Positions 4,755-42,313 are shown, counted from the stretch's first letter. The stretch is DNA of 43,764 nucleotides from Candidatus Paceibacterota bacterium (GCA_028697015.1 JAQVFW010000004.1:1-43764); one strand, 5' to 3'. Made by a program: numbers and translations. Notes: generated by a model not told the origin, from the letters alone.

Positions 4755-4797
4755 ATGTTTTAAAATAATATTCAAATTTTATTATTTTTACAGAAAC

Positions 4798-4827
4798 AAA
4801 AAAAACACAGTTATTGTGTTTTTTTTG
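4798..4827. terminator. bidirectional terminator between prmC and trpS
   Basis: ACACA (4805-4809) and TGTGT (4815-4819) form a stem flanked by an A run and a T run, so it can end both the rightward prmC and the leftward trpS transcripts. A second dyad, ATTGATA/TATCAAT, follows near 4839-4860 at the trpS end. Confidence 0.7.
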
Positions 4828-4850
4828 ATTGTTTTTCAATTGATAGAAAA

Positions 4851-5810: not shown

Positions 5811-5831
5811 AATACAAATATTGTAGCAAAA

Positions 5832-7505: not shown

Positions 7506-7635
7506 AAGTTTATTTTTACTGAAATTTATAAATTGAAACTTTAAATGCCCTAGAGGGGCGATTCCTATATCAATTTAAAAAATTATTTTATTTTTTATAT
7601 TTTAAAGATTACGAGTTTCGTATTCTTTTAGTTTG

Positions 7636-7717
7636 TGCCGAGGGCGGGACTTGAACCCGCAAGCCATAAGGCATACGGCTCTGAACCGTACGTGTTTGCC
7701 AATTTCACCACCTCGGC
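7636..7717 (-). tRNA. tRNA-Leu (CAG)
   Basis: Read on the minus strand: a 7-bp acceptor (GCCGAGG/CCTCGGC), anticodon stem TACGG/CCGTA with loop TTCAGAG (anticodon CAG), a long class II variable arm, and a T arm GCGGG-TTCAAGT-CCCGC. The discriminator is A and CCA is not encoded. Confidence 0.93.
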
Positions 7718-7740
7718 AAATGGTAATACTTGAAGATTTT

Positions 7741-9708
7741 TTAATTCCAAATTCTTTTTGTCCTTAAAAACCAATTCTCGATATCGGCAAATCTTTTTGA
7801 AGGATCAGCTATTTTTTCCGTTTTTATTCCCTTTGCTTTTGCAATATAGATAAATTCAGGAGAATAGAGGAATATAGATGGAGCATCTTTGATTATAATT
7901 TCCTGAAGAAGGGCCATTTTTTCCTTTCTTTTTTCTTCATCTAATGTTTCTCTTATTTCTTCTAGTATCTTATCTGCATCTTTATTTTCATAAAGAGAAA
8001 AATTGTATCCCGGGTCTTCCTTTTGGCTTGAATGCCAGAAAGGAAAAAAGTCGGGAATACCTCCTAAAACTGTCCCTAAAAGAAGCATTTCATAATTTCG
8101 GGGCCTTATAAGCTCTTGTTCTCTTTCTTCTCTTGGAACAGCTTCTATGTTTAATTTTATTCCTATTTCTTCCCACTGTGTCTTTAAAATTTCTCCGATT
8201 TTTATAAGAACGGGGTGCTCTATCGTTTTTAAAGTGAAAGAAAGAGGAATTGTATCTTTGGAGTTTTTAAAGCAAATTTCGTTTAATTTTTTAGAAGTGG
8301 CATTGCCAACTGTTCCTGTCCCTTCCGAAAGGCCAGAAGGATCTAAGATATCTTCTCTGTATTTTTCCTGAAAAGCGTTTACGGCTTCTTTCGTATTTTC
8401 CCCGAAATAACCGCTTATTTCTCCGTCTTTATATATATCTTCAAACCTTGAAAGGCATCTTTGGAGCTCTTCCACTTCTTTTCCTCTGGAGCCGAGTTTT
8501 AGTTCCGTTTTGAATTGAAAAGAGTTTTCTTTTTCAATAATTTTTTCCCTAAAGCCCTCTTGGTTTAATTTAAATCCCGCTTTGTCAAAAATTTCGCCGG
8601 CTTTTTCTTTGTTAAAAAGGTAATTATTTACCGGCTCTTTTACTTTGTAGAGCGAAGGCAAAACAGGAGATGTCGCAATTTGTCTTTCTGCCAAAGTGTC
8701 TTCTTTCTCTTTGAGAATATTTTTAACAAGAGCATTTTTATCTGTTCCGTAATTAAGGGCTTTTCTAATATCAGCATCTTTTAGCAGTTCCGATTTTTCA
8801 AGGTTAAAGAAAATGGCAAAATATCTTGGAAAGTAGAGGCGGTAAACATTAAGATTTGTTTTTATCATACTTGAAAGATAAAGTCCGTTAATTTCTTTTT
8901 TATCTATTGCAGATAGGGCTTTTTCTTCGTTTTCAAAAAAAACAAATTTTAATTCCTCAATGAACGGCTCTTTGCCGTGATAATTGGGATTTTTTGAAAG
9001 AACAATGTATTCTGTTATATTCTGGATTACTTTTCTCTCTTTTATCTTATAAGGGCCTGAACCGATTGGTTCTGATTGGTGGATATCCGTGAAGAATTTT
9101 TGGGATGGAACATCCTGCCAAATATGCTTTGGCATTATTTTTATTGTAAGGTTTTCCAAAAAAGAAGCGTAAGGTCTTTTTAATTTAAACTTGATTTCCT
9201 TTTCGCTTATTTTTTCTATGTCTACTCCCAGCCAATTCGGGCGAAAATGGCTTTTAAAGTCGGGGTTTTGGATTGTTTTTATTGTAAAAAGAACGTCTTC
9301 GCTTGTTATTGGCTCTCCGTCTTGCCAAACTATTCCATCTCTTAAGAAAACTCTGTATGTTCTTCCGTCTTCCTCTACTTGGTAACTTTCAGCAAGATCG
9401 GGAATTATTCCAAGATTTTCGTCATATTTCATCAGTCCTGAAAAAATAACCTCGACAAGGTCTTTATCCGTATCTGATTCAAGATATATAGGATTTACAA
9501 ATCTTGGCTGTCCGACTATTCCTTCAATATGAACTCCCCCTTTTGCAGGAACGATTTTCGTATTGCTAAAATAGAAATTAAGGGAAATAAAAAGAAAAGA
9601 AAGAACAAAAATAAAAGAGAAAAATAAAAAGAGTGTTTTTTCTTTCAAGTCCAAAACTTCAAATAAAAGGCCCCATTGTTTTCTGCTTGGCCACTTTTTC
9701 AAAATCAT
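7741..9708 (-). CDS. oligopeptide-type ABC transporter substrate-binding protein with inserted peptidoglycan-binding domain
   Basis: This 655-residue protein belongs to the SBP_bac_5 (OppA/DppA) family. It has one N-terminal membrane segment (about residues 24-46) and no lipobox cysteine, so it is probably membrane anchored and faces outward. The family region GIVWQDGEPITSEDVLFT is at about 125-142. Residues about 401-477 (TELKLGSRGKEVEELQ onward) look like a PG_binding_1 domain inserted inside the solute-binding fold, which resumes at IPLSFTLKT. No permease or ATPase genes lie beside it. A role in capturing peptides at the cell wall is inference. It ends 24 bp before the tRNA-Leu gene. Confidence 0.85.
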   Translation of the reverse strand: MILKKWPSRKQWGLLFEVLDLKEKTLFLFFSFIFVLSFLFISLNFYFSNTKIVPAKGGVHIEGIVGQPRFVNPIYLESDTDKDLVEVIFSGLMKYDENLGIIPDLAESYQVEEDGRTYRVFLRDGIVWQDGEPITSEDVLFTIKTIQNPDFKSHFRPNWLGVDIEKISEKEIKFKLKRPYASFLENLTIKIMPKHIWQDVPSQKFFTDIHQSEPIGSGPYKIKERKVIQNITEYIVLSKNPNYHGKEPFIEELKFVFFENEEKALSAIDKKEINGLYLSSMIKTNLNVYRLYFPRYFAIFFNLEKSELLKDADIRKALNYGTDKNALVKNILKEKEDTLAERQIATSPVLPSLYKVKEPVNNYLFNKEKAGEIFDKAGFKLNQEGFREKIIEKENSFQFKTELKLGSRGKEVEELQRCLSRFEDIYKDGEISGYFGENTKEAVNAFQEKYREDILDPSGLSEGTGTVGNATSKKLNEICFKNSKDTIPLSFTLKTIEHPVLIKIGEILKTQWEEIGIKLNIEAVPREEREQELIRPRNYEMLLLGTVLGGIPDFFPFWHSSQKEDPGYNFSLYENKDADKILEEIRETLDEEKRKEKMALLQEIIIKDAPSIFLYSPEFIYIAKAKGIKTEKIADPSKRFADIENWFLRTKRIWN

Positions 9709-9796
9709 ATATATAAAAATAGAGTTTTTACTTTTGGTTTAATATAAAAATCTTACAGCTAAAGAACAAAAAGTGAATTTTAGATATCTATTATAA

Positions 9797-10012
9797 TTAA
9801 AGAATCAGGCCTAAAAGGGCAAGAAGGACAAAGAGAGAAGCAAAAATAACCGTTAATAAGGAAAGCTTTTTTTGAAAACCTCTTTTAGCAGAATAAAAAT
9901 CTCCGCTTCCTCCAAATCCTGCTCCAAGGGCCGTTCCTCTTTGCTGGAGGAGAATAAAAAGAATAAGAAAGATTGAAACGACAATTTGAGCAGTCGTTAT
10001 GATTTTTTCCAT
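9797..10012 (-). CDS. secG: preprotein translocase subunit SecG
   Basis: The 71-residue protein has two membrane helices separated by the SecG signature LLQQRGTALGAGFGGSGDF. It is an accessory subunit of the SecYEG channel at the cytoplasmic membrane. The ATG at 10012 lies inside the end of the upstream holin-like gene (16-bp overlap), which implies coupled expression. Confidence 0.92.
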   Translation of the reverse strand: MEKIITTAQIVVSIFLILFILLQQRGTALGAGFGGSGDFYSAKRGFQKKLSLLTVIFASLFVLLALLGLIL

Positions 10013-10359
10013 GATTTTTTAAAACAGAGTATGAAGCTTAAAAGCCAAATTAAAAAAGTTGTTAATATAAGGCCTGTTATTTTTTCAATCTCAAAGGTTT
10101 CTTTGAAAAGAATTCCCATTACAAAAAAGACAAGCCCTACGTTTATAATTAAAGTGAAAAGTCCGAAAGTTATTATTCTAAAAGGCAAGAAAACAATCTT
10201 TAAAATCGGCTTTATAAAGAAATTAACAAGTCCGAGAATGGCGCCTGATAGCAAAATTTCCTTATATGTCCCGGAAAATGATATCCCGGGAATGTATTTT
10301 GTCGCAATAAATATTCCAATAATTCCGGAAAGAAGATAGAAAAAGAGCCGATTGATCAT
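9997..10359 (-). CDS. phage holin family 4-like (PF04020-type) membrane protein
   Basis: I choose the ATG at 10359 (MINRLFFYLLSG), giving 120 residues; a TTG eight codons upstream is less likely. The protein has four hydrophobic helices. The central region LGLVNFFIKPILKIVFLPFR is typical of this small membrane family, found across bacteria with no established function despite its holin-like name. It overlaps secG by 16 bp. Confidence 0.8.
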   Translation of the reverse strand: MINRLFFYLLSGIIGIFIATKYIPGISFSGTYKEILLSGAILGLVNFFIKPILKIVFLPFRIITFGLFTLIINVGLVFFVMGILFKETFEIEKITGLILTTFLIWLLSFILCFKKSWKKS

Positions 10360-10445
10360 AAAAAGTATTTTGGATAATAGCAAAAAAGGGTTTTTTAGTC
10401 AAGTGCAAACTTCTATTTTCATCTTTTTTAACTTAAAGTCGGGTA

Positions 10446-10473
10446 TTGACAAATATCGAAATTCTCCTAGAAT
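10446..10473 (+). promoter_or_regulatory. sigma70-type promoter of groES-groEL
   Basis: TTGACA at 10446-10451 and TAGAAT at 10468-10473 have a 16-bp spacer. The start codon of groES is about 107 bp downstream, leaving room for an operator in the leader. Confidence 0.6.
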
Positions 10474-10536
10474 TATATCACTATTTAAAGGTCTAATATA
10501 AAAAATAAAGGTCATCTATTTAAAAAGGTAAAAACT

Positions 10537-10566
10537 AAGCGCTTGCGATAATTATTTGTAGCGCTT
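10537..10566 (+). promoter_or_regulatory. inverted repeat before groES, possible heat-shock operator
   Basis: AAGCGCT (10537-10543) and AGCGCTT (10560-10566) form a 7-bp dyad with a 16-nt spacer in the groES leader, ending 13 bp before the ATG. The position resembles that of CIRCE operators bound by HrcA, but the sequence and spacing do not match the CIRCE consensus (TTAGCACTC-N9-GAGTGCTAA). Confidence 0.45.
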
Positions 10567-10579
10567 GGTTAATAAAATT

Positions 10580-10873
10580 ATGAAAGTTAAACCATTATCA
10601 GATCATATATTGATAGAGCCGGCTAAAAAGGAGGCAAAAACAAAGAGCGGAATTTTTCTTCCTGAAACGGCGGAAAAAGAAAGACCTGAAGCGGGAAGAG
10701 TAATTGCCGTTGGTCCCGGCAAGAAAACATCTTCTGGAAAAGTAGTTCCTCTTGAAATAAAGATTGGCGACGAAGTTCTCTTTACAAAATACGGACCGAG
10801 CGAGATTAAGATTGAAGAAAAAGAATATTTAATTGCTAAAGAAGAAGATATATTGGCAATTGTGGAAAAATAA
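10580..10873 (+). CDS. groES: co-chaperonin GroES
   Basis: The 97-residue protein starting at the ATG 10580 (MKVKPLSDHILIEP) matches GroES, the lid of the GroEL folding chamber. The mobile loop (about 18-33, TKSGIFLPE) and the roof segment are present. An earlier in-frame TTG at 10565 lies within the dyad and would add an atypical N-terminus. It is the first gene of the groES-groEL operon. Confidence 0.95.
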   Translation: MKVKPLSDHILIEPAKKEAKTKSGIFLPETAEKERPEAGRVIAVGPGKKTSSGKVVPLEIKIGDEVLFTKYGPSEIKIEEKEYLIAKEEDILAIVEK

Positions 10874-10882
10874 AGAGCCATT

Positions 10883-10927
10883 AAGTTAGCATTTGAGGGA
10901 AGATTGAAAGCCCGTCTTTGCTAACTT
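10883..10927 (+). other. intercistronic hairpin between groES and groEL
   Basis: AAGTTAGCA (10883-10891) pairs perfectly with TGCTAACTT (10919-10927), a 9-bp stem with a 27-nt loop. No T run follows, so it is not a standard terminator. It may protect mRNA or set the GroES/GroEL ratio, but this is inference. Confidence 0.5.
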
Positions 10928-10929
10928 GA

Positions 10930-12555
<1,626 letters not shown>

Positions 12556-12579
12556 AATCAATATAAAAGAGAGAAAAGA

Positions 12580-12610
12580 GGAAAGCGCCCATAAAAGCGC
12601 TTTCCTTTTT
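12580..12610 (+). terminator. intrinsic terminator after groEL
   Basis: GGAAAGCGC (12580-12588) pairs with GCGCTTTCC (12597-12605), followed by five T residues. Confidence 0.88.
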
Positions 12611-12650
12611 GTCTAATTTCTGCTTTAATAGAATTATCCTTTTTAAAAAT

Positions 12651-13283
12651 ATGCGCATTAACAAAACAATTGCTACTTTAATTTTTGCCGATTTGCTTCT
12701 CCATTCTGGATGGGGATTATTTTCTCCTATCTTTGCTATTTTTGTAACAGACCAGATCAAAAATGGAAGTCTTGAAATGGTCGGTTTTATCGTTGCCACA
12801 TATTGGCTGGTCAAATCAATAATCCAGCCGTTTTTAGCCAATTTTTTAGATATTAAAAAAGGAGAAGAAGACGACTTTTTTTCTCTGATACTTGGAATGA
12901 CTCTTGCAAGCTTTGTTCCTTTGGGATATTTTTTTGCAACTAACTTATTCCATGTTTTTTTTCTTGAAGCGATAAGAGGAGTGGCTATGGCCTGTGTTGT
13001 TCCCAGTTGGTACGGGATTTTTACAAGGCATATAAACAAGGACTGGTATGCTTTTTCCTGGAGCGTTCATAGTACCGCTCTTGGAGTGATGCTTGGATTT
13101 TCAGCTGCTTTTGGAGGAATAATTGCAGTTCTTTTGGGATTTAGAGTCCTTTTTATCGTTGTTTCCCTCCTTGGTTTTTCCGGAGTTTTAACTCTTCTTT
13201 ATGTAAGGAAAAGGATATTATCGGATGAATTTCAAAATTCTTCATTTTTTTCTTCTAAGGACTTTGAAAACAAAGATTCTTAA
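12651..13283 (+). CDS. half-size MFS-type membrane transporter
   Basis: Starting at ATG 12651 (MRINKTIATLIFADLL), the protein has 210 residues and about six membrane helices. The N-terminal GLFSPIFAIFVTDQI and the cytoplasmic loop after helix 2 resemble a major facilitator superfamily half. Full MFS transporters have about 12 helices and 400 residues, so this is either a genuine six-helix form or a truncated gene. The reading frame is intact and ends in a Ser/Phe/Lys-rich tail. No second half follows; polX starts 12 bp later. Substrate unknown. Confidence 0.7.
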   Translation: MRINKTIATLIFADLLLHSGWGLFSPIFAIFVTDQIKNGSLEMVGFIVATYWLVKSIIQPFLANFLDIKKGEEDDFFSLILGMTLASFVPLGYFFATNLFHVFFLEAIRGVAMACVVPSWYGIFTRHINKDWYAFSWSVHSTALGVMLGFSAAFGGIIAVLLGFRVLFIVVSLLGFSGVLTLLYVRKRILSDEFQNSSFFSSKDFENKDS

Positions 13284-13295
13284 TTTTTTAAATTT

Positions 13296-15032
13296 ATGAA
13301 AATTAAGGGCGGTATAAATAAAGAACTTGCTGAAATTTTCAATAAAATTGCAGATTATTTAAGGTCTCAGAAAGTTGAATTCAAGCCCCATGCTTATCAA
13401 AGAGTGGCGATTAGTATTTCTTCTTTGGAAAAAGAAGTAAGCCGGATTTATAAAGAAGAAGGGCTAAAGGGCCTTATGGAGATTCCGGGAGTAGGAGAAA
13501 ATATTGCTCTAAAAATAGAGGAATATATTGAAACAGGAAAGGTGAGCGATTATGAAAAAATAGGGAAAAAAATTCCTCCTGGAGTTTTTGAAATCGCAAA
13601 GATAGAAGGGATAGGATTAAAAAGAGCACAGATTCTTTATAAAAAACTAAAGATAAAGGATATGGGCAGTTTGGAAAAGGCGGCAAAAAAAGGCCTTATA
13701 GCCCCTCTTTTTGGCTTTGGAGAAAAAACGGAAAAAAACATACTGGAAGGAATAGCTTTTTTCAAAACAAGAAAAGATAAAATTTCCATTGCCGAGGCCT
13801 TTCTTATTGCAGAAAGAATAAAGAAAGAGCTTCTTTCTTTGAAAGAGGTTGAAGAAATAAGCGAGGCGGGTTCATTAAGAAGAAGAAAAGAATCAATTGG
13901 AGACATTGATATTATAATCGCGTCAAAAAGCCCAAAAAAGGTTATGGATTTTTTTGTTTCTTTGCCAGGAATTACAAAAATTTGGGGAAAAGGAAAAACC
14001 AAATCTTCAATACAGCTTAAGGAAGGGATTGATGTTGATCTTCGCGTCGTTTCAAAAGAAAACTATGGTTCTGCTCTTTTGTATTTTACCGGCTCAAAAG
14101 AGCATAATATTAAAATAAGGAAAATAGCTATCTCAAAAGGCCTTAAACTTAACGAATATGGAATTTACAAAGGAAAAAAACGATTGGGAGGAAAAACGGA
14201 AAAAGAGATTTATTCAATCTTGGGCCTTTCCTACTTGCCGCCTGAACTTCGGGAGGACAAAGGAGAGATTGAAGAGAAAAAAATTCCCAATCTCTTAGAA
14301 TTAAAAGATATTAAAGGAGATCTTCATTGCCATTCTTTGTGGAACGGAGGACAGAACAAAATAGAAGAAATAGCAAAGACGGCCATTGAAAGAGGATATG
14401 AATATATTGGCATTTCTGACCATACAAAATTTTTGAAAATTGAACGCGGGCTTGATGAAAAACAGTTAATAGAGCAAAGGAAAGAAATTGATAAGATTAA
14501 TGTTCAATTAAAGGGAAGAATTACTCTCTTGCAGGGATGCGAATGCAATATTTTAAATGATGGCAGCGTAGACATTCAAGAGAAAGAATTAAGAAAACTT
14601 GATTATGTTATTGCCGGAGTCCATTCTAACTTAAAAATGAGCAGAGATGAAATGACAAAAAGAATTATTACGGCAATGAAAAATCCAAACATTGACATTA
14701 TTTCCCATCCGACTGGAAGATTAATAAATCTAAGAGAAGAATATCGGATTGATTTTGAAAAAATCTTAAAAGTTGCAAAGGAAACGGGAACAACCTTAGA
14801 AATAAACGGGTCTCCTTACAGATTGGATTTAAAAGATATTTATATAAGAAGAGCGAAATCAATCGGAGTAAAAATGATAATAGGAAGCGACGCCCATGAG
14901 AAATCCCAGACCAGGTTTATGGAATTTGGAGTTTTTCAGGCAAGAAGAGGATGGGCGGAAGAAAAAGACATAATCAATTCTTTTTCTCTTAATAAATTTT
15001 TAAAATTGCTCAAGCGAAACAATCAAAATTAA
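13296..15032 (+). CDS. polX: DNA polymerase/3'-5' exonuclease PolX
   Basis: The 578-residue protein has the architecture of bacterial family X polymerases, which fill short gaps in base excision repair. Helix-hairpin-helix regions lie at about 60-75 and 100-115. The nucleotidyltransferase core has GSLRR at 192-196 with the metal-binding Asp pair in GDIDI (203/205) and a third in DVDLR. A PHP domain with HCH at 344-346, ISDH at 373-376 and a late GSDAH supplies the exonuclease site. All metal ligands I can check are intact. The gene is 2 bp upstream of the Nudix gene. Confidence 0.93.
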   Translation: MKIKGGINKELAEIFNKIADYLRSQKVEFKPHAYQRVAISISSLEKEVSRIYKEEGLKGLMEIPGVGENIALKIEEYIETGKVSDYEKIGKKIPPGVFEIAKIEGIGLKRAQILYKKLKIKDMGSLEKAAKKGLIAPLFGFGEKTEKNILEGIAFFKTRKDKISIAEAFLIAERIKKELLSLKEVEEISEAGSLRRRKESIGDIDIIIASKSPKKVMDFFVSLPGITKIWGKGKTKSSIQLKEGIDVDLRVVSKENYGSALLYFTGSKEHNIKIRKIAISKGLKLNEYGIYKGKKRLGGKTEKEIYSILGLSYLPPELREDKGEIEEKKIPNLLELKDIKGDLHCHSLWNGGQNKIEEIAKTAIERGYEYIGISDHTKFLKIERGLDEKQLIEQRKEIDKINVQLKGRITLLQGCECNILNDGSVDIQEKELRKLDYVIAGVHSNLKMSRDEMTKRIITAMKNPNIDIISHPTGRLINLREEYRIDFEKILKVAKETGTTLEINGSPYRLDLKDIYIRRAKSIGVKMIIGSDAHEKSQTRFMEFGVFQARRGWAEEKDIINSFSLNKFLKLLKRNNQN

Positions 15033-15034
15033 AT

Positions 15035-15466
15035 ATGCTAAAGGAATTATCATTTGGAGCAGTCCTTTTCAGAGTAGAAAAAGGAAAAATATATTATCTT
15101 CTTTTGCAGCATTCAAAAAATTATTTCAATTTTCCTAAAGGAGGACTTGAAAAAGATGAAGGAGCAATAAGAGCTGCAAAAAGAGAGATTTTGGAAGAAA
15201 CTGGCATTAAAGACGTTAAAATAATAAAAGGATTTAAAGAAAAAAATAATTATATTTTCAGGCAAAAAGGGAAATTAATTTTTAAGACCGTTATTTTTTT
15301 TCTTGCGCAGACCAAAGAGGAAAAGGTAACGATTTCAAAAGAACATATCGGATATAAATGGCTTTCTTATGAAGATGCTACAAGCTTTTTAAGAATAAAA
15401 GATTTAAAAAAGATATTAAAAAAAGCAGATGATTTTTTAAAATCTCTGCAAAATAAAAGCAGATAG
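15035..15466 (+). CDS. Nudix hydrolase
   Basis: The 143-residue protein carries a complete Nudix box, from GGLEKDEGAIRAA to KREILEETGI (about residues 35-58), with the REILEE metal-binding core. The family hydrolyses nucleoside diphosphate-linked substrates such as damaged nucleotides or dinucleoside polyphosphates. The start FGAVLFRVEKGKIYYLLLQ resembles the diadenosine-polyphosphate/MutT-like subgroup. It follows polX almost directly. Its stop is 10 bp before the left end of the mobile element, which did not damage it. Confidence 0.9.
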   Translation: MLKELSFGAVLFRVEKGKIYYLLLQHSKNYFNFPKGGLEKDEGAIRAAKREILEETGIKDVKIIKGFKEKNNYIFRQKGKLIFKTVIFFLAQTKEEKVTISKEHIGYKWLSYEDATSFLRIKDLKKILKKADDFLKSLQNKSR

Positions 15467-15545
15467 GTATATTATTGTGTATCTATACAACCAAGCTCGA
15501 ACTTATTTTACCAAAAATCTCTGAAAAAATCCAACGAGAGAAAGT

Positions 15546-15687
15546 GGCCGCCCGCTTTGCGGGCGGCCATGACCCGTCCTGTGGCGGCACACGCCTGCGG
15601 CGAGCAAAGCAGAAATTTTTCCAATTTTATTTTTTGTGCCCCCAATTTTTAATTTTTCCATAACGTAGGAAAAATTTCTGCTTTGCT
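15546..15687. other. hairpin-rich non-coding segment of inverted repeat 1
   Basis: The stretch 15477-15740 has no convincing gene. It holds a perfect 10-bp stem, GGCCGCCCGC/GCGGGCGGCC (15546-15568, TTT loop), and a perfect 20-bp inverted repeat (15603-15622 with 15668-15687) with a 45-nt loop, followed by TCTCC-TAAC-GGAGA. The mirror copy is at 21016-21157. It may be a recombinase-binding arm of attP, a structured RNA, or both; this is inference. Confidence 0.6.
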
Positions 15688-15739
15688 TTTCTCCTAACGG
15701 AGAATTGCGCCGCCCTCGCTCAAGATTTTTAGCAAAAAG

Positions 15740-15769
15740 AAAAAGGGCGACACTCGTTGAGCATCGCCC
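15740..15769 (-). terminator. terminator of the left peptide operon
   Basis: Mirror of 20934-20963. On the minus strand an 11-bp stem starting GGGCGA and ending TCGCCC, with an AAC loop, is followed by five T residues, just behind the peptide stop codon. Confidence 0.85.
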
Positions 15770-15791
15770 CTGTCAGCCGTCCTCGTGAAGT

Positions 15792-15950
15792 TCACTCGGA
15801 CTGCTGGGTTGTGTGGGGAGCCTGCACTTCGGACTTGTCGGAGCTTTTCGGCTCCGGCTTGTCCTGCGGCTGGCTCTCCTCCTGTGCCTTGGTCTTGACC
15901 TGGATTTCGGTGATCTTGTCACCGTCCAGGATGGCCTTGCACTTGGACAT
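15792..15950 (-). CDS. 52-residue peptide, left copy (candidate radical SAM substrate)
   Basis: This gene is identical to the one at 20753-20911 because it lies in the inverted repeat. It starts at ATG 15950 after AGGAGG with a 6-nt spacer, 16 bp behind the stop of the B12-type radical SAM gene, and ends before a strong terminator. The peptide begins MSKCKAILDGDKITEI and continues as a hydrophilic Gln/Ser/Lys/Glu/Pro-rich tail ending HTTQQSE. It has one cysteine (residue 4) and no Phe, Tyr or Trp. I do not recognise the family. Its place at the end of each radical SAM operon makes it a candidate substrate or partner of those enzymes. Confidence 0.75.
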   Translation of the reverse strand: MSKCKAILDGDKITEIQVKTKAQEESQPQDKPEPKSSDKSEVQAPHTTQQSE

Positions 15951-15966
15951 AGCGCACCTCCTTTCT

Positions 15967-17292
15967 CTAGGATTCGTTCGCGAATTGGTACTCGCTGTAC
16001 GGCATGCCTGACGAAATCTTCTTCTGGTAGGCATTCAAGATCATGTCTCTTGCCTCTCTAGGATCGACTTCGAACTTACAGGTGTACACCGTTGCATCGA
16101 AGTCATCCCACTGCTCGTAATCCCAATCGCCGATCCAGTGTTGCGTTGCGGTGTACAACGCAGTGTTCGGGAACGGCGTAAGAAAAGAGAAGTTGAGAAG
16201 CGATGGTTCTATCCGTTCCACCAAAGAGACGGTGTCCAGGATGTCTTGCTTGGTTTCACCCGGCACGCCTATGATGAGGTATGCCCCCGGCTTAATCCCC
16301 ACCCGATGACAGAGATCAAAAGCGTGGACAATCTTTTCACGCGTGAACCCTTTGACAAGGAACTGGAGGATTCTCTCGCTTCCGGATTCCACGCCGAACA
16401 GAAGCTCGACGCAACCGGCCGCCTTCATCGCTTCCAGCATTTCCTCATCAACGGTATCAACCCGACCCTGGGTGCTCCACGGGGTCCGTAGAGATCTTTC
16501 CTGGAGCGTCTGGCACAAAGCGATGACACGCTTTTTGTTGACCGTAAAAAGATCATCGAAGTAAAAGATGTCATCCGGGGCGTAGCGCTTTTCTAGAAAA
16601 AGCATCTCTGCGGCAACATCCTCCGCGTCGCGGTACCTCACTCGTCTGCCGGTTACGGTCCGATCGCAAAACGAGCAACTGAACGGACAACCCCGCGATC
16701 CCATGATGTGAACCGAGGTTATCTTTGCCGAATTAAGCCATCGCGCGAGGTAGGCCTTTTCGTCAAAGATTGTGCGATCCGGCCAGGGAATCGTTCTAAC
16801 GTCAGGAAGCGTCGGATCCACTCTTGTACTAATGACGTTCCCATCTCTATTGATTATGAGGTTAGGAACATCACTGAGCGATTCGCAGTTCTCCAGACGA
16901 CGGAGGATGAGAGGTAGTAGATCCTCCGCTTCTCCTTTGACGACGATATCGATTTCAGTGCCCTTGCTGAAATCTTGTTGTTGTATAGCAAGAGCACTAG
17001 GGCCGGGACCGCCCAGGATTACTGTGGTTGTAGGATTGTACTTCTTCACAATCTTCGCAACCAATTCAGCAGCCTTGATTTGCCGGATCGTAGCCGAGAT
17101 CAGCACGACGTCGGTGGTCAAGTCATTGACCCTTTGCCAAAAATGATCTTCCTCGATCATTTGGCCGTCAATAAGGTCAATTTGCACGTCCTGCGCCCGC
17201 AAGACAGCCGCCAAATATCCTATCCCAAGAGGAGGGTAGGGCGTTTTGGCAAATTTGTACGGAATGGGCGGGAAGACAAATGTCGCCTTCAC
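15967..17292 (-). CDS. B12-binding-domain radical SAM protein
   Basis: The 441-residue protein has an N-terminal cobalamin-binding-like Rossmann domain (about 1-130, with LISATIRQIKAAELVAKI and ILGGPGPSA) and a radical SAM core whose cluster cysteines are C202, C206 and C209 (CPFSCSFC). A short C-terminal region follows. Relatives methylate or rearrange unactivated carbons, or modify lipids, pigments and peptides. The start is GTG at 17292, with AGGAGG about 7 nt upstream. Transcription should come from the promoter at 17345-17373. It is followed 16 bp later by the peptide gene. G+C content and strong ribosome binding sites contrast with the host genes. Substrate unknown. Confidence 0.88.
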   Translation of the reverse strand: MKATFVFPPIPYKFAKTPYPPLGIGYLAAVLRAQDVQIDLIDGQMIEEDHFWQRVNDLTTDVVLISATIRQIKAAELVAKIVKKYNPTTTVILGGPGPSALAIQQQDFSKGTEIDIVVKGEAEDLLPLILRRLENCESLSDVPNLIINRDGNVISTRVDPTLPDVRTIPWPDRTIFDEKAYLARWLNSAKITSVHIMGSRGCPFSCSFCDRTVTGRRVRYRDAEDVAAEMLFLEKRYAPDDIFYFDDLFTVNKKRVIALCQTLQERSLRTPWSTQGRVDTVDEEMLEAMKAAGCVELLFGVESGSERILQFLVKGFTREKIVHAFDLCHRVGIKPGAYLIIGVPGETKQDILDTVSLVERIEPSLLNFSFLTPFPNTALYTATQHWIGDWDYEQWDDFDATVYTCKFEVDPREARDMILNAYQKKISSGMPYSEYQFANES

Positions 17293-17344
17293 TTTTTACC
17301 TCCTTTCTGGCATTGAGTTTTGAAAGAACCGATGGACTGATTGA

Positions 17345-17373
17345 TTTATAGCATAAAATACTGCATAATACAA
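17345..17373 (-). promoter_or_regulatory. promoter of the leftward cargo operon
   Basis: On the minus strand TTGTAT (17373-17368) and TATAAA (17350-17345) have a 17-bp spacer. The B12-type radical SAM start is about 52 bp downstream. Confidence 0.65.
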
Positions 17374-17431
17374 TAGTGTGAACATAATAATACTCCTTGG
17401 TTTCGGCTCAAGTCGGCGTATTTACATAACC

Positions 17432-17460
17432 TTGCTTTTATTTTCTAACTATGATATAAG
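17432..17460 (+). promoter_or_regulatory. likely promoter of the rightward cargo operon
   Basis: TTGCTT (17432-17437) and TATAAG (17455-17460) have a 17-bp spacer, about 54 bp before the RNHCP gene. The divergent intergenic region 17293-17513 is clearly more AT-rich than the genes on either side. Confidence 0.5.
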
Positions 17461-17513
17461 GGTTTATTTATAGGTACGCTGATCTTTGACAACCAAAAAA
17501 GGAGGTAAAAACT

Positions 17514-17828
17514 ATGATGACGACTCGAAAATTCCAGCGTACCAAAGAAGACTTCACCTGCGAACGGTGCGGATTCTTTGTACGCGGAAGCGGCTACACG
17601 AACCACTGTCCGCAGTGTTTGTGGAGCAAGCACGTTGACGTGAATCCCGGCGACCGCCAGGCGACATGTCAAGGGCTCATGGAACCCGTGAGCGTGGAGC
17701 TCAAGGGCGGAGAATACATCATTCTCCATCGCTGTAACTCGTGCGGTTTCGAGAAGCGGAATAAGGCGGCGAAGGACGACAACTTTGACGCAATTCTCCA
17801 ACTCTCAAGCCGTCCAACCAAACGGTAG
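17514..17828 (+). CDS. RNHCP domain zinc-binding protein
   Basis: The 104-residue protein has an N-terminal CERCG pair followed by TNHCPQCLWSKHVD, which matches the RNHCP family (named for this motif), and a second pair in HRCNSCG (about residue 78). Four Cys pairs or ligands suggest one or two zinc ribbons. Function of the family is not established. A ribosome binding site (GGAGG, 8-nt spacer) precedes the ATG. It is the first gene of the rightward cargo operon, 24 bp before the first radical SAM/SPASM gene. It may be a small partner or regulator of the system, which is inference. Confidence 0.85.
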   Translation: MMTTRKFQRTKEDFTCERCGFFVRGSGYTNHCPQCLWSKHVDVNPGDRQATCQGLMEPVSVELKGGEYIILHRCNSCGFEKRNKAAKDDNFDAILQLSSRPTKR

Positions 17829-17852
17829 AAATACCAGAAAGGAGTGAATGTA

Positions 17853-19292
17853 ATGAACGCGAAGTCCAGTTCCGGCACGCCGTTGCCGCTGGTTCAGCCC
17901 GACTGGTCGCCGGTCGCAACGGTGCGATGCGATTACCAGTCGGCTGGACAGCGCGAAGACGGCAAGTACGTCGAGCACGATACGATTCCTCATCTCTGTC
18001 ACATCGAGATGACGTACGCGTGCAACGAGAAGTGCATCTTCTGCTACAACCCCGAGCGAGCGAAGCTCGGCGACCTCTCCGCAATTGACCGGCTTGTCCG
18101 TTCGGTCGCGGAGAGTCAGATTCCCCACGTGTACCTGATCGGCGGTGAGCCGAGCCTGCTACCCGTGGAGAAACTCAACGAGTACATCGAGTTGCTTTCC
18201 GAGCATTCGTCGGTGACCATCGTCACGAACGGTCTCCGGCGGCTCAAGGGCGTCTCGAGTAAACTCGCCTGCTTCGGAGTTCCGATCCACGGCGCGAATA
18301 CCGAGACTCACGAGTTTCTGAATCAGTCCAAGGGAAGCTTTAAGAAAACCTTGGAAACTATCAGACACTATGTGAGTGAAGGCCACGACGTGCGGTGTAT
18401 TCCGGTTCTCACCGGCTACAACTACAATCAGATGTACGATATCATCGGCATCGCAGCGAACCTCGGCATGGAATCCATCTATGTCGATCGTTACGAAGAC
18501 GGCGGTATCGGCGCGGTTAACTCCCGCGGCTATCGTCTCAAGCCGACGCGCGAGCAGTTCCACATCGCCGTGGGGCAGATCATCCAGGCCAAGCGCGACT
18601 TCACGGTCTTCGGAGGGCGGGTCGGATTCGGCACTGCCATTCCGTACTGCTTGGACGAACGGATGATCACTGAGGGCATCACCTCGAACTGCGGGGTTGG
18701 CACGTATTTCTGCGCGATCAATCCCAAGGGCGAATTCCGGATGTGCAATCAGTCGCAACTCGTTTTCGGCAACCTGTCGGACGAGCCGATTGAAGTGATC
18801 TGGAGCAAGCCCGCGCTCGACATCTTCCGCGATCTGTCGTGGGTCGGCGAGCCGTGCAAGTCGTGCGAACTTCTGCTCGACTGCACGGGCGGCTGCAAGG
18901 TTGATGCGAACTGTTCCAACAAATTCTGCATCGACTACGCGGCTCGCGGGCTTTCCAAGCCCGTCGCCGAACTTGTGGCGAAAGTAGAGCACTGCCGGCC
19001 GGCCGATATGTATCCGGAAAACTATCGGATCTTCCGACCGAACCGGTACATGAAGCTCACTACGCGGTACCCGGAGAAATTCCTGGTAACCCGCTACCAG
19101 ACAGTGAAGCTCGATGCGATGGCGCTTGAGATGGCGCAAGCCATCAAGAGCGGAGCCATCATCAGCGAGCGCGATCTCGTCGCCAGATTCATCGAGCGGG
19201 TCGAGAAGCCAGAAATCCGGCTTTTCGTGAGCAAGATGCTTCAGGTGGACGCGCTCGATCTCATCGGGGAGGTGCACCATGCCGCTCCGTGA
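17853..19292 (+). CDS. radical SAM/SPASM protein with possible PqqD-like C-terminal domain
   Basis: I choose ATG 17853 (MNAKSSSGTPLPL; 479 residues) because GGAG lies 8 nt upstream; a GTG at 17844 overlaps that site. The radical SAM cluster cysteines are C57, C61 and C64 (CNEKCIFC). A SPASM-type region (about 280-360) has many Cys, including CAINPKGEFRMC and CKSCELLLDCTGGC. Residues about 396-475 (NRYMKLTTRYPEKFLVTRY onward) resemble a PqqD-like peptide-recognition winged helix. Relatives install crosslinks in ribosomal peptides or activate partner enzymes. It overlaps the next radical SAM gene by 14 bp. Confidence 0.87.
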   Translation: MNAKSSSGTPLPLVQPDWSPVATVRCDYQSAGQREDGKYVEHDTIPHLCHIEMTYACNEKCIFCYNPERAKLGDLSAIDRLVRSVAESQIPHVYLIGGEPSLLPVEKLNEYIELLSEHSSVTIVTNGLRRLKGVSSKLACFGVPIHGANTETHEFLNQSKGSFKKTLETIRHYVSEGHDVRCIPVLTGYNYNQMYDIIGIAANLGMESIYVDRYEDGGIGAVNSRGYRLKPTREQFHIAVGQIIQAKRDFTVFGGRVGFGTAIPYCLDERMITEGITSNCGVGTYFCAINPKGEFRMCNQSQLVFGNLSDEPIEVIWSKPALDIFRDLSWVGEPCKSCELLLDCTGGCKVDANCSNKFCIDYAARGLSKPVAELVAKVEHCRPADMYPENYRIFRPNRYMKLTTRYPEKFLVTRYQTVKLDAMALEMAQAIKSGAIISERDLVARFIERVEKPEIRLFVSKMLQVDALDLIGEVHHAAP

Positions 19293-20784
19293 GATTCACT
19301 GGGAGGTCACCAACAGGTGTAAGCTCCGATGTAAGCACTGCCTGCCGATGTCCGGTCCTCCGCGACCGGGCGAACTCACGACCGAAGAAGCAATGGCGGC
19401 TTTAGATTCGTTCAAAGGCGCCGGAGCTTCCAAGGTTTTCTTCACGGGCGGCGAACCGTTCAGTCGCAGGGATTTCACGGATTTGCTTGAGCGGACGGTG
19501 GCGTTGGGGATGCGAGCATCCGTTATCACCAACGCTACCTATCTTAGAGGCGAAATCCTCGGACTGCTCAAGCGACTGGAAGTCAAGCTCGGGATCAGTC
19601 TCGATGGGGCGAATGAAGCAACCAATGACGCGATTCGCGGCAAAGGAAACTTCAAGCAAGCCATCGAGGCTCTCAAGCGATGTCAGGAGAACGACATTGC
19701 AGTCACACTCTATGTCACAGTCACGGTGGCGAACATAGGACAGCTGGACACTTTTGCCCGGCTCACCAAGGAGTATAGCTGTAACGGTATTCACTTCAAC
19801 GAAGTGGCCATCGCCGGTCGCGCCATCGGCTTCTCGGACGAGCTTGCTCTCTCCGATGATCAGAAGCGGCGTTTGCCGGAGTTGGTTGCGCAAGCGACTC
19901 AAGACGTTTTCGGAGAGAAACTTTCCGAAACGGACGATCTCTGTTGGGTGGATGCCGAAACGCTCTACATGACAGCCGAGGGAAAGCTTTACGTCTGTAG
20001 TGAAGTTTTCCAGCGTCGCCTGGACCTCGCCATCGGCAATATCCGTTCGTTTCCGCTCAAGGAGTGGTTGGAGCGTAACACTTCTGCTTACTCCGGCCAC
20101 GGAAACAAGTGTTGCTATGGTGTGCGTGCGAGCGAGCATGTGGTCTTTGTCGGAAATGTTGCGCCGGAGTGCCCGTTTGCCCCGCGCAAGCAGGGTATCG
20201 AAACTCTGTCGCAACTCTATGACGCTCTCGATGAACTCTACCAAGGAATCGAGCAAGACTGCCGCGACTGCCAAGACCCCGATTGCATGGGTTATATCTG
20301 GTTGCTCAAGAAGGAAGCGGAGCGGCTGTATGAGCGAGGAGTGCCGTTGGTGCAAGTCAACAACGGCCCCACATTCATTCATTCGTTTCCCGCAACGGTC
20401 AACGGCAAACCGAATCTTTCGGTTCGGTATCCGCCGTGCAGTCAGTTGTGTAGCGACAGTCGAAGGTGTAGCATCTACGAAGACCGGCCGCTCGTCTGCC
20501 GTCTCTACCCGTTGGGTCTTGAGACGAAAGAAGACGGTACGATCGTGTGGGCGCTTCATCGAGACTGTCTCCATATTCGGAGGATGGAAGAGCGCGGTAC
20601 GCTTCCAGCTTTCGAAAACCGTGTCCGAAACATCATCAGCAACCTCTCGCCAGAATTGCTGGAAGAAATCGTCGAAACCTACCGCGCGGTAGATGCGGTT
20701 TCTTCTTTCCCCGACGGCGAGAACAACTACAGTTCTTTACAGGAGGTGCGCTATGTCCAAGTGCAAGGCCATCCTGGACGGTGA
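19279..20784 (+). CDS. radical SAM/SPASM-like protein with YkgJ-like cysteine-rich C-terminus
   Basis: The 501-residue protein opens directly with the radical SAM motif, cysteines C14, C18 and C21 (CKLRCKHC), and FFTGGEPFSRRDF (about 54-66). A SPASM-like Cys region spans about 223-340 (YVCSEVF, CRDCQDPDCMGY). Residues about 384-420 read CSQLCSDSRRCSIYEDRPLV then CRLYPLG, which matches the second half of the YkgJ (UPF0153) metal-chelating domain; the usual first CxxC.xCC part is not evident. The start overlaps the previous gene by 14 bp. The last 14 codons run into inverted repeat 1 and overlap the start of the peptide gene in another frame. Confidence 0.87.
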   Translation: MPLREIHWEVTNRCKLRCKHCLPMSGPPRPGELTTEEAMAALDSFKGAGASKVFFTGGEPFSRRDFTDLLERTVALGMRASVITNATYLRGEILGLLKRLEVKLGISLDGANEATNDAIRGKGNFKQAIEALKRCQENDIAVTLYVTVTVANIGQLDTFARLTKEYSCNGIHFNEVAIAGRAIGFSDELALSDDQKRRLPELVAQATQDVFGEKLSETDDLCWVDAETLYMTAEGKLYVCSEVFQRRLDLAIGNIRSFPLKEWLERNTSAYSGHGNKCCYGVRASEHVVFVGNVAPECPFAPRKQGIETLSQLYDALDELYQGIEQDCRDCQDPDCMGYIWLLKKEAERLYERGVPLVQVNNGPTFIHSFPATVNGKPNLSVRYPPCSQLCSDSRRCSIYEDRPLVCRLYPLGLETKEDGTIVWALHRDCLHIRRMEERGTLPAFENRVRNIISNLSPELLEEIVETYRAVDAVSSFPDGENNYSSLQEVRYVQVQGHPGR

Positions 20785-20911
20785 CAAGATCACCGAAATC
20801 CAGGTCAAGACCAAGGCACAGGAGGAGAGCCAGCCGCAGGACAAGCCGGAGCCGAAAAGCTCCGACAAGTCCGAAGTGCAGGCTCCCCACACAACCCAGC
20901 AGTCCGAGTGA
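20753..20911 (+). CDS. 52-residue peptide, right copy (candidate radical SAM substrate)
   Basis: Same 52-residue product as the left copy. AGGAGG at 20741-20746 with a 6-nt spacer fixes the start at 20753; an in-frame upstream ATG at 20693 lacks this and would lie inside the radical SAM gene. The gene overlaps the last 32 bases of that gene in a different frame, so expression should be coupled. It ends at 20911, followed by a strong terminator. Mostly polar composition and no aromatic residue set it apart from tyrosine/tryptophan-crosslinked peptide precursors; Cys4, Lys, Gln or Asp side chains would be the possible targets if it is modified. Confidence 0.75.
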   Translation: MSKCKAILDGDKITEIQVKTKAQEESQPQDKPEPKSSDKSEVQAPHTTQQSE

Positions 20912-20933
20912 ACTTCACGAGGACGGCTGACAG

Positions 20934-20963
20934 GGGCGATGCTCAACGAGTGTCGCCCTTTTT
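20934..20963 (+). terminator. terminator of the right peptide operon
   Basis: GGGCGATGCTC and GAGTGTCGCCC pair over 11 bp (two G-T pairs) around an AAC loop and are followed by five T residues. Confidence 0.88.
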
Positions 20964-21209
20964 CTTTTTGCTAAAAATCTTGAGCGAGGGCGGCGCAATT
21001 CTCCGTTAGGAGAAAAGCAAAGCAGAAATTTTTCCTACGTTATGGAAAAATTAAAAATTGGGGGCACAAAAAATAAAATTGGAAAAATTTCTGCTTTGCT
21101 CGCCGCAGGCGTGTGCCGCCACAGGACGGGTCATGGCCGCCCGCAAAGCGGGCGGCCACTTTCTCTCGTTGGATTTTTTCAGAGATTTTTGGTAAAATAA
21201 GTTCGAGCT

Positions 21210-21240
21210 TGGTTGTATAGATACACCACTACAAAACAAG
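21210..21240 (-). other. intact attP-like site in the middle of the element
   Basis: Read on the minus strand, this segment has TTGTTTTGTAGTG, then GTGT (21226-21223), then ATCTATACAACC. This is exactly the sequence obtained by joining the right end of the element (…GTAGTG-GTGT, up to 23054) to its left end (GTGT-ATCTATAC…, from 15477). It is therefore a second copy of the site that was used for integration, in inverted orientation. Whether the recombinase can use it is inference. Confidence 0.75.
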
Positions 21241-21360
21241 ACGGCTTTTTGAGAGCCAAATCGTGGGCGGCACGCAGTGCCGCCCATTGGTTTTTGTGCG
21301 GAGAATCCTTGCCGCTCGGCGCGGCAAGCCGCGCCTCGCGGTTGGCCAAAACGAGGTTCG
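21223..21360 (+). repeat. inverted repeat 2, left copy (138 bp)
   Basis: Reverse complement of 22917-23054 (paired positions add to 44277) with one mismatch. It is antisense to the 3' end of the recombinase gene and starts with ACACCA, the same six bases as the 3' end of tRNA-Arg(CCU) including its CCA. It contains the hairpins GGGCGGCAC/GTGCCGCCC and GCGCGGC/GCCGCGC. Confidence 0.95.
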
Positions 21361-21437
21361 TTCTTGTGCGATTTTGGAATTCTGTCTCGCATTTGCTTTG
21401 CCTACAAAAAGAATTTTTACTTGACTTGGATTTATGC

Positions 21438-21532
21438 TATACTGAAGTCGTGCTCAACAAGTCGAAGGACTTTTTTGATCGCCGTCTTGGACAATTCGAA
21501 GTTCTTCGAGTTGAGCACACCAGGGCGGCGAT
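21438..21532 (+). promoter_or_regulatory. extended -10 promoter and interleaved leader stems of the recombinase gene
   Basis: TGCTATACT (21435-21443) is an extended -10 element. The predicted leader holds GTGCTCAAC (21450-21458) pairing with GTTGAGCAC (21510-21518), and ATCGCCG (21478-21484) pairing with CGGCGAT (21526-21532). The two stems cross, so they form either a pseudoknot or alternative structures just before the ATG at 21548. This could control recombinase expression; the pairings are seen, the role is inferred. Confidence 0.5.
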
Positions 21533-21547
21533 TTAAGTATTATATTT

Positions 21548-23089
21548 ATGCAAAACACTATCTCGCAAAAATTCTTTTTGTATGCCCGCAAGTCCACTGA
21601 TGTGGAAGATAAACAAGTGCGGTCTATCGATGACCAACTTGCAGAATTACGCGCTTTTGCCAAAACCGAAGGGCTAAATGTTGTTGATGAGTTTATAGAA
21701 AAGCAGTCCGCCAAAATTCCGGGCCGTCCAATATTCAACGATATGCTCAACCGCATTGAACACGGCGAAGCTAACGGAATTTTGGCGTGGCACGCGGACA
21801 GATTGGCGCGCAATTCTGTTGATGGCGGACGAATAATTTATCTCTTGGATTGCGGGCATATTGCGGCGTTGAAATTTCCGACGCTATGGTTTGAGAATAC
21901 GCCGCAAGGAAAATTTATGCTCAACATTGTTTTTGGGCAAAGCAAATATTATGTTGATTCGCTTGCCGAAAATACACGCCGAGGATTGCGCCAAAAAGTG
22001 AAGCGCGGCGAATATCCGGGCGTTGCGCCGGTCGGCTACATAAATGACGTTCGCACTAAATCAATCATTGTGGACAAAAGAAAATCGGTTATCATTCGCC
22101 ACGCGTTTGAGCTTTACGCGCAAAACGGCTCGCGCCTTGAAGACATCTCAAACTTTTTGGCGCAGAACGGAATGCTTTCAAGCGGCGGCAAGCAAATCAA
22201 CCGAGACAGAATTTCTTTTATCCTTTCCAATCCGTTTTATGTCGGCCTCTTTCGCTACGCCGGAGAGGTCTACGAGGGCAAACACCAGCCAGTCGTCTCA
22301 AAGAAAATTTTTGACAAGGTACAGGAAATTTTGAAGGAGCGCGGCCGGCCGCACCATAAACCGAAGAACGAGCCGCAACCGTTCTGCGGTCTCATGCGTT
22401 GCGCCGAGTGCGGCATGGGGATAACTGCCGAAAAGCAAAAGGGGCATATTTATTACCGCTGTACCAAAAAGCGCGGCAACTGCTCTCAACCTTATGTCCG
22501 CGAGGAAGAATTAAATCGGCAGTTATCCCGACTCCTTCAAAAATTTTCTTTGAGACCGGATTGGGCGGCAGAAATGAGGAAAATGCTTGAAAAAGACAAA
22601 ACAGAAGCCGCCCAATCCGCAACCGCTTTTGTTCAAGAAGCGCGGGAGAAAATCGAAACGATCTCGCTCAAGCTCCAGCGACTTTTAGACGGCTATCTTG
22701 AGCAAGTTATTGAGCAGGAAATATACCGAGTGGAAAAGGCAAAACTCTTAAGCGAGAAAAAGTCGCTGGAGGAGCAATCTTTCAATCTTGAACAAAAGCG
22801 GACTGGCTGGCTCGAACCTATGGCGGAATGGATAAAAGAGGCAGAGAATCTGCCTAAAATCGCGCGGGAGAGCAACCTTTTCGTCAAAAAGGTTGCTGCC
22901 AAAGAAATCTTTGGCTCGAACCTCGTCTTGGCCAACCGCGAGGCGCGGCTTGCCGCGCCGAGCGGCAAGGATTCTCCGCACAAAAACCAATGGGCGGCAC
23001 TGCGTGCCGCCCACGATTTGGCTCTCAAAAAGCCGTCTTGTTTTGTAGTGGTGTCCTCGGCAGGAATCGAACCTGCATTTAGAGTTTAG
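21548..23089 (+). CDS. large serine recombinase (site-specific integrase)
   Basis: The 513-residue protein has a resolvase-type catalytic domain (YARKS with Ser16; DRLARNSVDGGRI near 82-94), a recombinase domain, and a zinc ribbon (CAECGMG…YRCTKKRGNC, about 284-312) followed by a coiled-coil-like region rich in Glu and Lys. Such enzymes integrate and excise elements at short att sites. The reading frame has no stop of its own before the element end: it crosses the GTGT core and stops inside the antisense of tRNA-Arg(CCU), adding SSAGIEPAFRV. In the circular form the frame would instead continue YLYNQARTYFTKNL and stop. The last ~46 codons of element sequence lie in inverted repeat 2. Confidence 0.92.
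   Translation: MQNTISQKFFLYARKSTDVEDKQVRSIDDQLAELRAFAKTEGLNVVDEFIEKQSAKIPGRPIFNDMLNRIEHGEANGILAWHADRLARNSVDGGRIIYLLDCGHIAALKFPTLWFENTPQGKFMLNIVFGQSKYYVDSLAENTRRGLRQKVKRGEYPGVAPVGYINDVRTKSIIVDKRKSVIIRHAFELYAQNGSRLEDISNFLAQNGMLSSGGKQINRDRISFILSNPFYVGLFRYAGEVYEGKHQPVVSKKIFDKVQEILKERGRPHHKPKNEPQPFCGLMRCAECGMGITAEKQKGHIYYRCTKKRGNCSQPYVREEELNRQLSRLLQKFSLRPDWAAEMRKMLEKDKTEAAQSATAFVQEAREKIETISLKLQRLLDGYLEQVIEQEIYRVEKAKLLSEKKSLEEQSFNLEQKRTGWLEPMAEWIKEAENLPKIARESNLFVKKVAAKEIFGSNLVLANREARLAAPSGKDSPHKNQWAALRAAHDLALKKPSCFVVVSSAGIEPAFRV
22917..23054 (-). repeat. inverted repeat 2, right copy (138 bp)
   Basis: Pairs with 21223-21360 with one mismatch. It covers the 3' coding end of the recombinase and reaches six bases into the 3' end of tRNA-Arg(CCU) (23049-23054), so tRNA and element share this boundary. 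Confidence 0.95.
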
Positions 23090-23123
23090 GAAACTCTCGT
23101 TCTGTCCATTGAACTACGAGGAC
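23049..23123 (-). tRNA. tRNA-Arg (CCU), target site of the element
   Basis: Acceptor GTCCTCG/CGAGGAC, anticodon stem AGAGT/ACTCT with loop TTCCTAA (anticodon CCT), T arm GCAGG-TTCGATT-CCTGC. The discriminator is A (23052) and CCA is encoded (23051-23049), but those bases come from the element side of the core. Joining the flanks without the element gives a 3' end reading CAA, not CCA, like most tRNAs here. Confidence 0.94.
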
Positions 23124-42309: not shown

Positions 42310-42313
42310 CATT

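Follow-up and report, generated by a model that had tools for sequence, protein, structure and literature searches.

A second, inverted attP in a serine-recombinase element at a tRNA-Arg gene of a Candidatus Paceibacterota bacterium and in its relatives

Why would an element that integrates by means of a large serine recombinase (LSR) carry a second, intact copy of its attachment site, attP, in inverted orientation? The question is raised by an element at positions 15477-23054 of a 43,764-nucleotide stretch of DNA, hereafter the window, from a Candidatus Paceibacterota bacterium (GCA_028697015.1, JAQVFW010000004.1:1-43764). The genome comprises 676 kb in 20 contigs and is rated 100% complete. 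The element is seated in the tRNA-Arg(cct) gene and has a G+C content of ~52%, against ~35% in its flanks. We describe its layout and show that the mirrored attP recurs in a clade of LSR elements found mostly in bacteria of the candidate phyla radiation (CPR). We then weigh what the second site may be for, and tentatively suggest that it is a spare copy both of the site and of the end of the LSR gene.

Layout of the element

The element ends in two GTGT cores. Joining its ends gives ...TTTTGTAGTG-GTGT-ATCTATACAACC..., and the exact reverse complement of this junction is found in the middle of the element. The features that define this layout are given below in window coordinates, with the basis of each in brackets.

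15477-15480, plus strand: attL core GTGT (end-joining comparison; arm overlap)
15477-15962, plus strand: outer A arm, comprising the element-side half of attL and the flanking repeat (100% inverted match to 20741-21226)
20741-21226, minus strand: inner A' arm (inverted-repeat search)
21223-21226, minus strand: core of the internal, intact, inverted attP (end-joining comparison; inverted-repeat search)
21223-21360, minus strand: inner B' arm (inverted-repeat search)
21548-23089, plus strand: LSR (PF00239, 3e-22; PF07508, 4e-16; PF13408, 2e-10)
22917-23054, plus strand: outer B arm, comprising the LSR 3' end and the element-side half of attR (inverted-repeat search)
23051-23054, plus strand: attR core GTGT (end-joining comparison)
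23049-23123, minus strand: tRNA-Arg(cct), the target, its 3' CCA supplied by the element (tRNA prediction; empty sites in relatives)

The A arms, which flank the cargo, are 486 bp long and 100% identical, and the B arms, which flank the LSR gene, are 138 bp long and 99.3% identical, with one mismatch. The two kinds of arm share the 4-bp core and meet at the internal attP. The order along the element is A-cargo-A'-B'-LSR-B with the core in register, and the unique halves are the cargo (15963-20740) and the recombinase (21361-22916). In the predicted circle, one attP overlaps the 3' end of the LSR gene and the other lies upstream of this gene, between the LSR and cargo halves. A first-pass annotation of this DNA had reported the cores, the mid-element reverse complement, the arm limits and the coordinates of both halves, all of which are correct to the base. 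Its description of two unique halves parted by two inverted copies of one attP-containing repeat holds for the predicted circle. With a perfect match over 486 bp and recurrence in dozens of relatives, the layout cannot have arisen by chance. The other inverted pairs detected in the 43.8-kb window (minimum length 30) were this LSR gene against a broken LSR at 43.4 kb (73%) and a 32-nt pair of 84% identity.

The same annotation had assigned the element to the serine-integrase type, and rightly so: the LSR contains Resolvase (PF00239), Recombinase (PF07508) and zinc-ribbon (PF13408) domains, and attL and attR are built around a short core. In its domains, in its att sites around a short core and in the motif shift between attP and attB (see below), the element matches LSR integrative elements, and it departs from them in having more than one attP. 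As regards the target, tRNA-Arg(cct) adjoins the same HtrA-like gene, with no neighboring LSR, in ten genomes of the same family or order, their flanks being too diverged for a base-by-base alignment of the empty site. The encoded 3' CCA of the tRNA (window 23046-23056) comes from the element, and is absent from the predicted empty site and from most empty sites of relatives.

Distribution of the mirrored attP

We searched genome contigs with the LSR as query and obtained 80 loci, mostly from CPR bacteria and some from Verrucomicrobia, Deltaproteobacteria and others. Inverted repeats flank the LSR in most of these loci. Once duplicates were removed, repeats were present in 69 of the 78 evaluable loci whose LSR is at least 41% identical to that of the window, and in 1 of 42 below 41% identity (the latter largely from the same CPR genome sample). 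In a tree of 126 LSRs, all 74 repeat-bearing rows fall within a single clade, which comprises 93 rows and has full local support. Six rows inside this clade are without repeats, as are all 31 evaluable rows outside it. Since the tree was built with FastTree and has long deep branches, only the clade itself is relied on. Judged from the sequences compared, the mirrored layout marks one well supported, mostly CPR clade of LSRs. The second intact inverted attP is present in 34 complete elements. Thus the layout, which had been called unusual for a serine-integrase element, is unusual in general but is the rule within this clade (69/78). In a separate draw of 241 CPR genomes, 78 had an LSR match at E <= 1e-60, and an LSR of at least 41% identity was counted from the match table in about 50.

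Relatives with one attP and no inverted repeat, which the first-pass annotation had named as evidence that would speak against it, are few in the clade, and those examined look degraded or gapped, or resemble single-site derivatives. The repeat-less clade LSRs at loci L053, L054, L067 and L073 have no recognizable internal or left att site, or are truncated. At locus L184 an attL-like stretch lies just upstream of the LSR, and this locus may be a single-site derivative. Locus L040 was considered as an LSR half placed between two tRNA genes, as would result from use of the internal attP, and was rejected because it contains a scaffold gap of N's and its left end resembles the end of another element.

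Several loci depart from the common plan. Locus L183 (G043:C10, 4344-10488), the one exception outside the clade, has the full mirrored layout at tRNA-Asn with an LSR only 26-30% identical to that of the window; it is not in the 126-LSR tree, and the presence of the full layout with such a distant LSR lineage suggests that the layout arose a second time. In locus L178 (G016:C8) a stretch of about 2.3 kb, which includes a regulator-like gene, separates the B' arm from the LSR downstream; the recombinase half can thus house genes too. Upstream of its cargo, at 7444-7766, locus L025 has one more complete attP-like copy, its third, in direct orientation with the LSR 3' end; this may be what is left of a tandem copy. 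At about 3700-9400 of locus L054, repeated stretches near the LSR, rich in AAC/AAT codons, are similar to the variable regions of diversity-generating retroelements.

The genome under study harbors six complete copies, the window element and five more, at six tRNA genes and each with its own repeats. In the five further copies, the cargo (3.0-8.9 kb) is enclosed by A arms of 158-350 bp and the LSR by B arms of 114-152 bp; the targets of these copies are tRNA-Leu(taa), tRNA-Asn(gtt), tRNA-Ile(gat), tRNA-Ala(ggc) and tRNA-Arg(tcg). In a seventh copy the A pair is present and the LSR is cut by the contig end. The layout is also clear in the single-contig genomes G153 (one element) and G183 (three elements), and it occurs in two more single-contig genomes, G005 (A arm short) and G106 (arms more diverged). 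These observations bear on a chimeric or wrongly resolved repeat, an assembly error that had been raised as a possibility for this locus. Many contigs of relatives end exactly at the mirrored repeat, a sign that assemblers struggle there. However, given the copies in single-contig genomes (with AP024682.1 in addition), the 69 of 78 evaluable clade loci and six complete copies in one genome whose repeats are all different, we regard an artefact as practically ruled out.

Two further observations concern neighboring elements. Locus L080 (AP024682.1, titled complete genome) has, at about 4471-15096, two related repeat-bearing elements in tandem upstream of one tRNA-Ser. In the window itself, a broken LSR relative in two frames occupies 42502-43648 on the minus strand, beside tRNA-Arg(ccg) and tRNA-Ser(cga) at 42237-42399; an LSR located at tRNA-Ser(cga) in a different CPR genome matches it at 76% identity.

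In nearly every placed element, the B arm enters the 3' end of the antisense tRNA by 4-5 bp, and many isotypes are targeted. The attP of most elements reads B-TGG|TG-A, with a [TCG]CGAA[CT] motif in the A half. The T-loop version of this motif is 4-6 bp closer to the core in the tRNA than in attP in 27 of 27 scored elements, with a shift of 4 bp in the window element; the shuffled-attP control averaged 1.5 and reached 6 at most. Shifts were scored by a fixed motif scan with this control, looser patterns having given mixed numbers. In serine integrases, the attB motif is shifted by about 5 bp towards the center relative to attP (PMC3783163), and the agreement with this known shift argues that the element sites are genuine attP/attB partners. 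The LSRs of the clade appear to recognize the T-loop, which can explain the many different tRNA targets.

Concerted arms, fixed orientation and the attP-encoded tail

The B arms within an element have a median identity of 99.3%, compared with 83% to the nearest other element. Among 20 pairs of related elements, we counted 300 concerted sites, which differ between elements and agree between arms, and 0 sites with the ancestral pattern that independent divergence of the arms from a common ancestor would leave. Within elements, the aligned arms evolve in concert. Their identity peaks beside the core and declines outward, a gradient that results partly from anchoring the arms at the core.

The repeat could be an old inverted duplication that occurred in the ancestor of the clade and has no function, its copies being homogenized by gene conversion. 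A single main origin on the tree, plus such conversion, would suffice for this, but we give it little probability. The repeat is kept in 69 of 78 evaluable loci with LSR identity down to about 41%, the part closest to the site is the best preserved, and the same plan is found with a distant LSR in L183. Alternatively, the internal attP could be an operator through which the LSR represses its own promoter, inverted only since a direct repeat would be deleted. In the window, about 320 bp separate the internal core from the LSR start downstream of it, and the outward fall of arm identity from its maximum at the core would fit such a role. An operator is nonetheless decidedly unlikely, as the identity far exceeds an LSR footprint (486 bp at 100% in the window) and the B' arm of L178 is about 2.3 kb from the gene.

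Relative to the tRNA, the LSR half points the same way in 78 of 79 placed loci. The sole reversed copy, L023, has an LSR broken by frameshifts and stops. Two loci were excluded from this tally: L041, rejected as a reversed copy because what lies next to its left tRNA is an LSR remnant from another element, and L215, where the automatic A call fell on the tRNA gene. The orientation of the cargo is fixed as well, since an XRE-type helix-turn-helix gene adjoins the inner A' arm and is directed away from it in 17 of 17 complete elements that carry this gene. Serine integrases on their own do not recombine attP with attP or other site pairings (PMC3783163). The first-pass proposal that either half may invert freely is thus not borne out across the clade, and the parallel that it drew with yeast 2-micron-type plasmids stands for the layout, with its two halves and two inverted repeats, and falls for the behavior. 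The second attP may, as that annotation also proposed, serve for further integration or for the handling of multimers.

A flip circle of the 2-micron kind would recombine its inverted attP copies, inverting either half and perhaps amplifying the circle during replication. Its two unique halves and its pair of inverted repeats would match the layout found here, and it would account for the homogenized arms. We consider it very improbable in view of the orientations fixed across the clade (78:1 for the LSR, 17:0 for the cargo regulator), of the lack of attP x attP pairing by serine integrases alone (PMC3783163) and of the absence of any replication gene among the proteins scanned. A Pfam scan of proteins from the window and from several relatives revealed no replication or partition genes and no virion or conjugation genes.

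Another possibility is self-templated circularization, in which the internal attP acts as a splint. A linear or single-stranded copy, for example transformation DNA, would pair A with A' and B with B', and its ends would meet exactly at the core to give a perfect circle without an excision factor. This would account for the A-cargo-A'-B'-LSR-B order with the core in register, for arms homogenized without inversion, and for the lack of a candidate excision-factor gene common to all elements, none having been found among 28 complete ones. The sole candidate, and the only widely shared gene other than that of the LSR, encodes the XRE-type helix-turn-helix protein (14 of the 28, absent from the window element); in several elements a DNA methyltransferase gene follows it, so that it is perhaps a controller gene. 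RecA and ComEC genes are present in this genome, which makes both gene conversion and splint circularization possible. A splint is nevertheless unlikely, as the A arms are very short in some elements (about 47-55 bp in L055, L135 and L181) and as it leaves the LSR tail and the orientation bias unexplained.

The tail is the C-terminal part of the LSR. In 62 of 67 elements the LSR frame of the predicted circle continues across the core, into a tail that is encoded by the A half of attP and has the consensus L-[YLF]-x-x-[AIV]-R-T-x-F-x-x-N; R-[TNS]-x-F is present in 58 of the 67 elements. The Leu five residues before the Arg is encoded by TTA, CTA, CTT, TTG and others, only the middle base being fixed, the Arg codon is CGA or AGA, and the later Asn is AAT or AAC. 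This varied use of synonymous codons points to selection on the tail protein. Integration via the attP that overlaps the LSR gene exchanges about the last 15 LSR codons, the native tail being swapped for antisense-tRNA codons. Here the integrated frame runs via attR into the tRNA gene and has the C-terminal sequence SSAGIEPAFRV. In the integrated state, the native tail sequence is kept intact only in the internal inverted attP, which in the window is crossed by an open reading frame (ORF).

21179-21349, minus strand: ORF across the internal attP, in which a copy of the LSR C-terminus leads into the native tail ...YLYNQARTYFTKNL, the latter encoded in A' (ORF scan; tail comparison)

The reading that we favor, and hold tentatively, is that integration disarms the LSR by this tail swap, and that the mirrored attP is a protected spare of both site and tail. 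The swap would disarm or redirect the integrated LSR, and nearly all persisting copies would be in the disarmed state as a consequence. A copy integrated via the upstream attP would keep an armed LSR and would be short-lived. The internal attP, as a mirror image, would store both the intact site and the native tail. Gene conversion of the RecA type between the inverted arms would keep this spare identical, and could restore an armed LSR together with a perfect attP. The arrangement would be inverted rather than direct since direct repeats would delete the cargo or the recombinase.

Three points weigh against a protected spare. The 78:1 bias could reflect the choice of attP, for instance through a cis-preference of the LSR, instead of the loss of armed copies. 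The tail region doubles as the DNA-binding motif, so that its conservation is partly at the DNA level. Finally, at least one clade LSR, that of L184, looks intact yet has no mirror copy, and the mirror is thus not strictly required. A broader version of the favored reading is possible but doubtful: the exchange of the C-terminus might be a built-in switch of arming and directionality that replaces an excision factor, with the inverted attP as its reset cassette, and might be spread across the CPR.

Cargo, significance and known systems

The cargo half of the window element and the adjoining A arms contain the following genes.

15792-15950, minus strand: 52-aa ORF in the outer A arm (ORF scan; no Pfam match)
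15967-17292, minus strand: B12-binding radical S-adenosylmethionine (SAM) protein (PF02310, PF04055)
17514-17828, plus strand: RNHCP-domain protein (PF12647, E 6e-32)
17844-19292, plus strand: radical SAM protein with a SPASM domain (domain search)
19279-20784, plus strand: radical SAM protein with a C-terminal CxxCxxCC domain, its 3' end entering the inner A arm (domain search)
20753-20911, plus strand: identical second copy of the 52-aa ORF in the inner A arm, inside the ORF at 20693-20911 (position mirrored from the repeat alignment)

The paired identical 52-aa ORFs (MSKCKAILDGDKITEIQ...) adjoin three radical SAM genes, and could encode the precursor peptide of a modified-peptide pathway. 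Over 34 complete elements, the cargo ranges from 153 bp to 8.9 kb, with a median of 3.2 kb. Other elements carry a nucleotidyltransferase of the cyclic-oligonucleotide-based anti-phage signaling system (CBASS) type with a methyltransferase, type I restriction-modification genes, a prolyl-tRNA synthetase with radical SAM genes, sugar and nucleotide enzymes, or hydrogenase maturation proteins. Searches of plasmids, phages and viral contigs gave neither a close relative nor a circular form, and no relatives were found among viral contigs; the closest LSR matches in phage and plasmid collections are only about 22-30% identical. An Rfam search of the element revealed nothing notable besides the target tRNA. 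Apart from these elements, an uninterrupted open frame of 24,428 codons was observed at about 416294 of G045:C7, in a CPR genome.

Few mobile elements have been described from CPR bacteria, whose genomes are small, yet the one genome studied here contains at least six complete mirrored-attP elements. Such elements look like an important route of cargo gain in the CPR, including restriction-modification, CBASS-type, radical SAM, hydrogenase-maturation and sugar genes. The paired inverted attP and the attP-encoded tail bear directly on the control of direction in serine integrases. As the clade appears to recognize the nearly invariant T-loop of tRNAs, it offers an extensive natural collection of LSRs in which one logic is combined with many tRNA targets. 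The frequent breaks of CPR contigs beside these LSR genes are likewise explained by the mirrored repeats. The open-access literature searched, which leaves most subscription papers and all preprints outside, contained no description of such a layout in CPR bacteria or Parcubacteria, or of a second attP in serine-integrase elements. The clade of mirrored-attP elements is apparently undescribed.

Three known systems share part of this plan. LSR elements and prophages of the phiC31, Bxb1 and A118/Listeria LI type carry one attP. They share the Resolvase, Recombinase and zinc-ribbon domains with the window LSR, and in both cases attP x attB recombination gives attL and attR around a short core, with the recognition motif of attB lying about 5 bp nearer the core than that of attP. 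In contrast to them, the predicted circle described here has two inverted attP sites and an LSR C-terminus encoded across attP. Yeast 2-micron-type plasmids have FLP/FRT inverted repeats and a tyrosine recombinase. Like the predicted circle, they comprise two unique halves and two inverted repeat copies that hold the recombinase site, whereas the present elements integrate in tRNA genes, use a serine recombinase, have fixed orientations and showed no replication or partition genes among the scanned proteins. The SSV1-type integrases of archaeal viruses have their attP inside the integrase gene and target tRNA genes. Here too the tRNA is the target, and the overlap with attP means that integration alters the integrase gene. 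The elements of the present clade differ from the SSV1 type in that the recombinase belongs to a different class, the exchange is confined to about the last 15 codons, and site and tail both persist within the element as an intact inverted copy.

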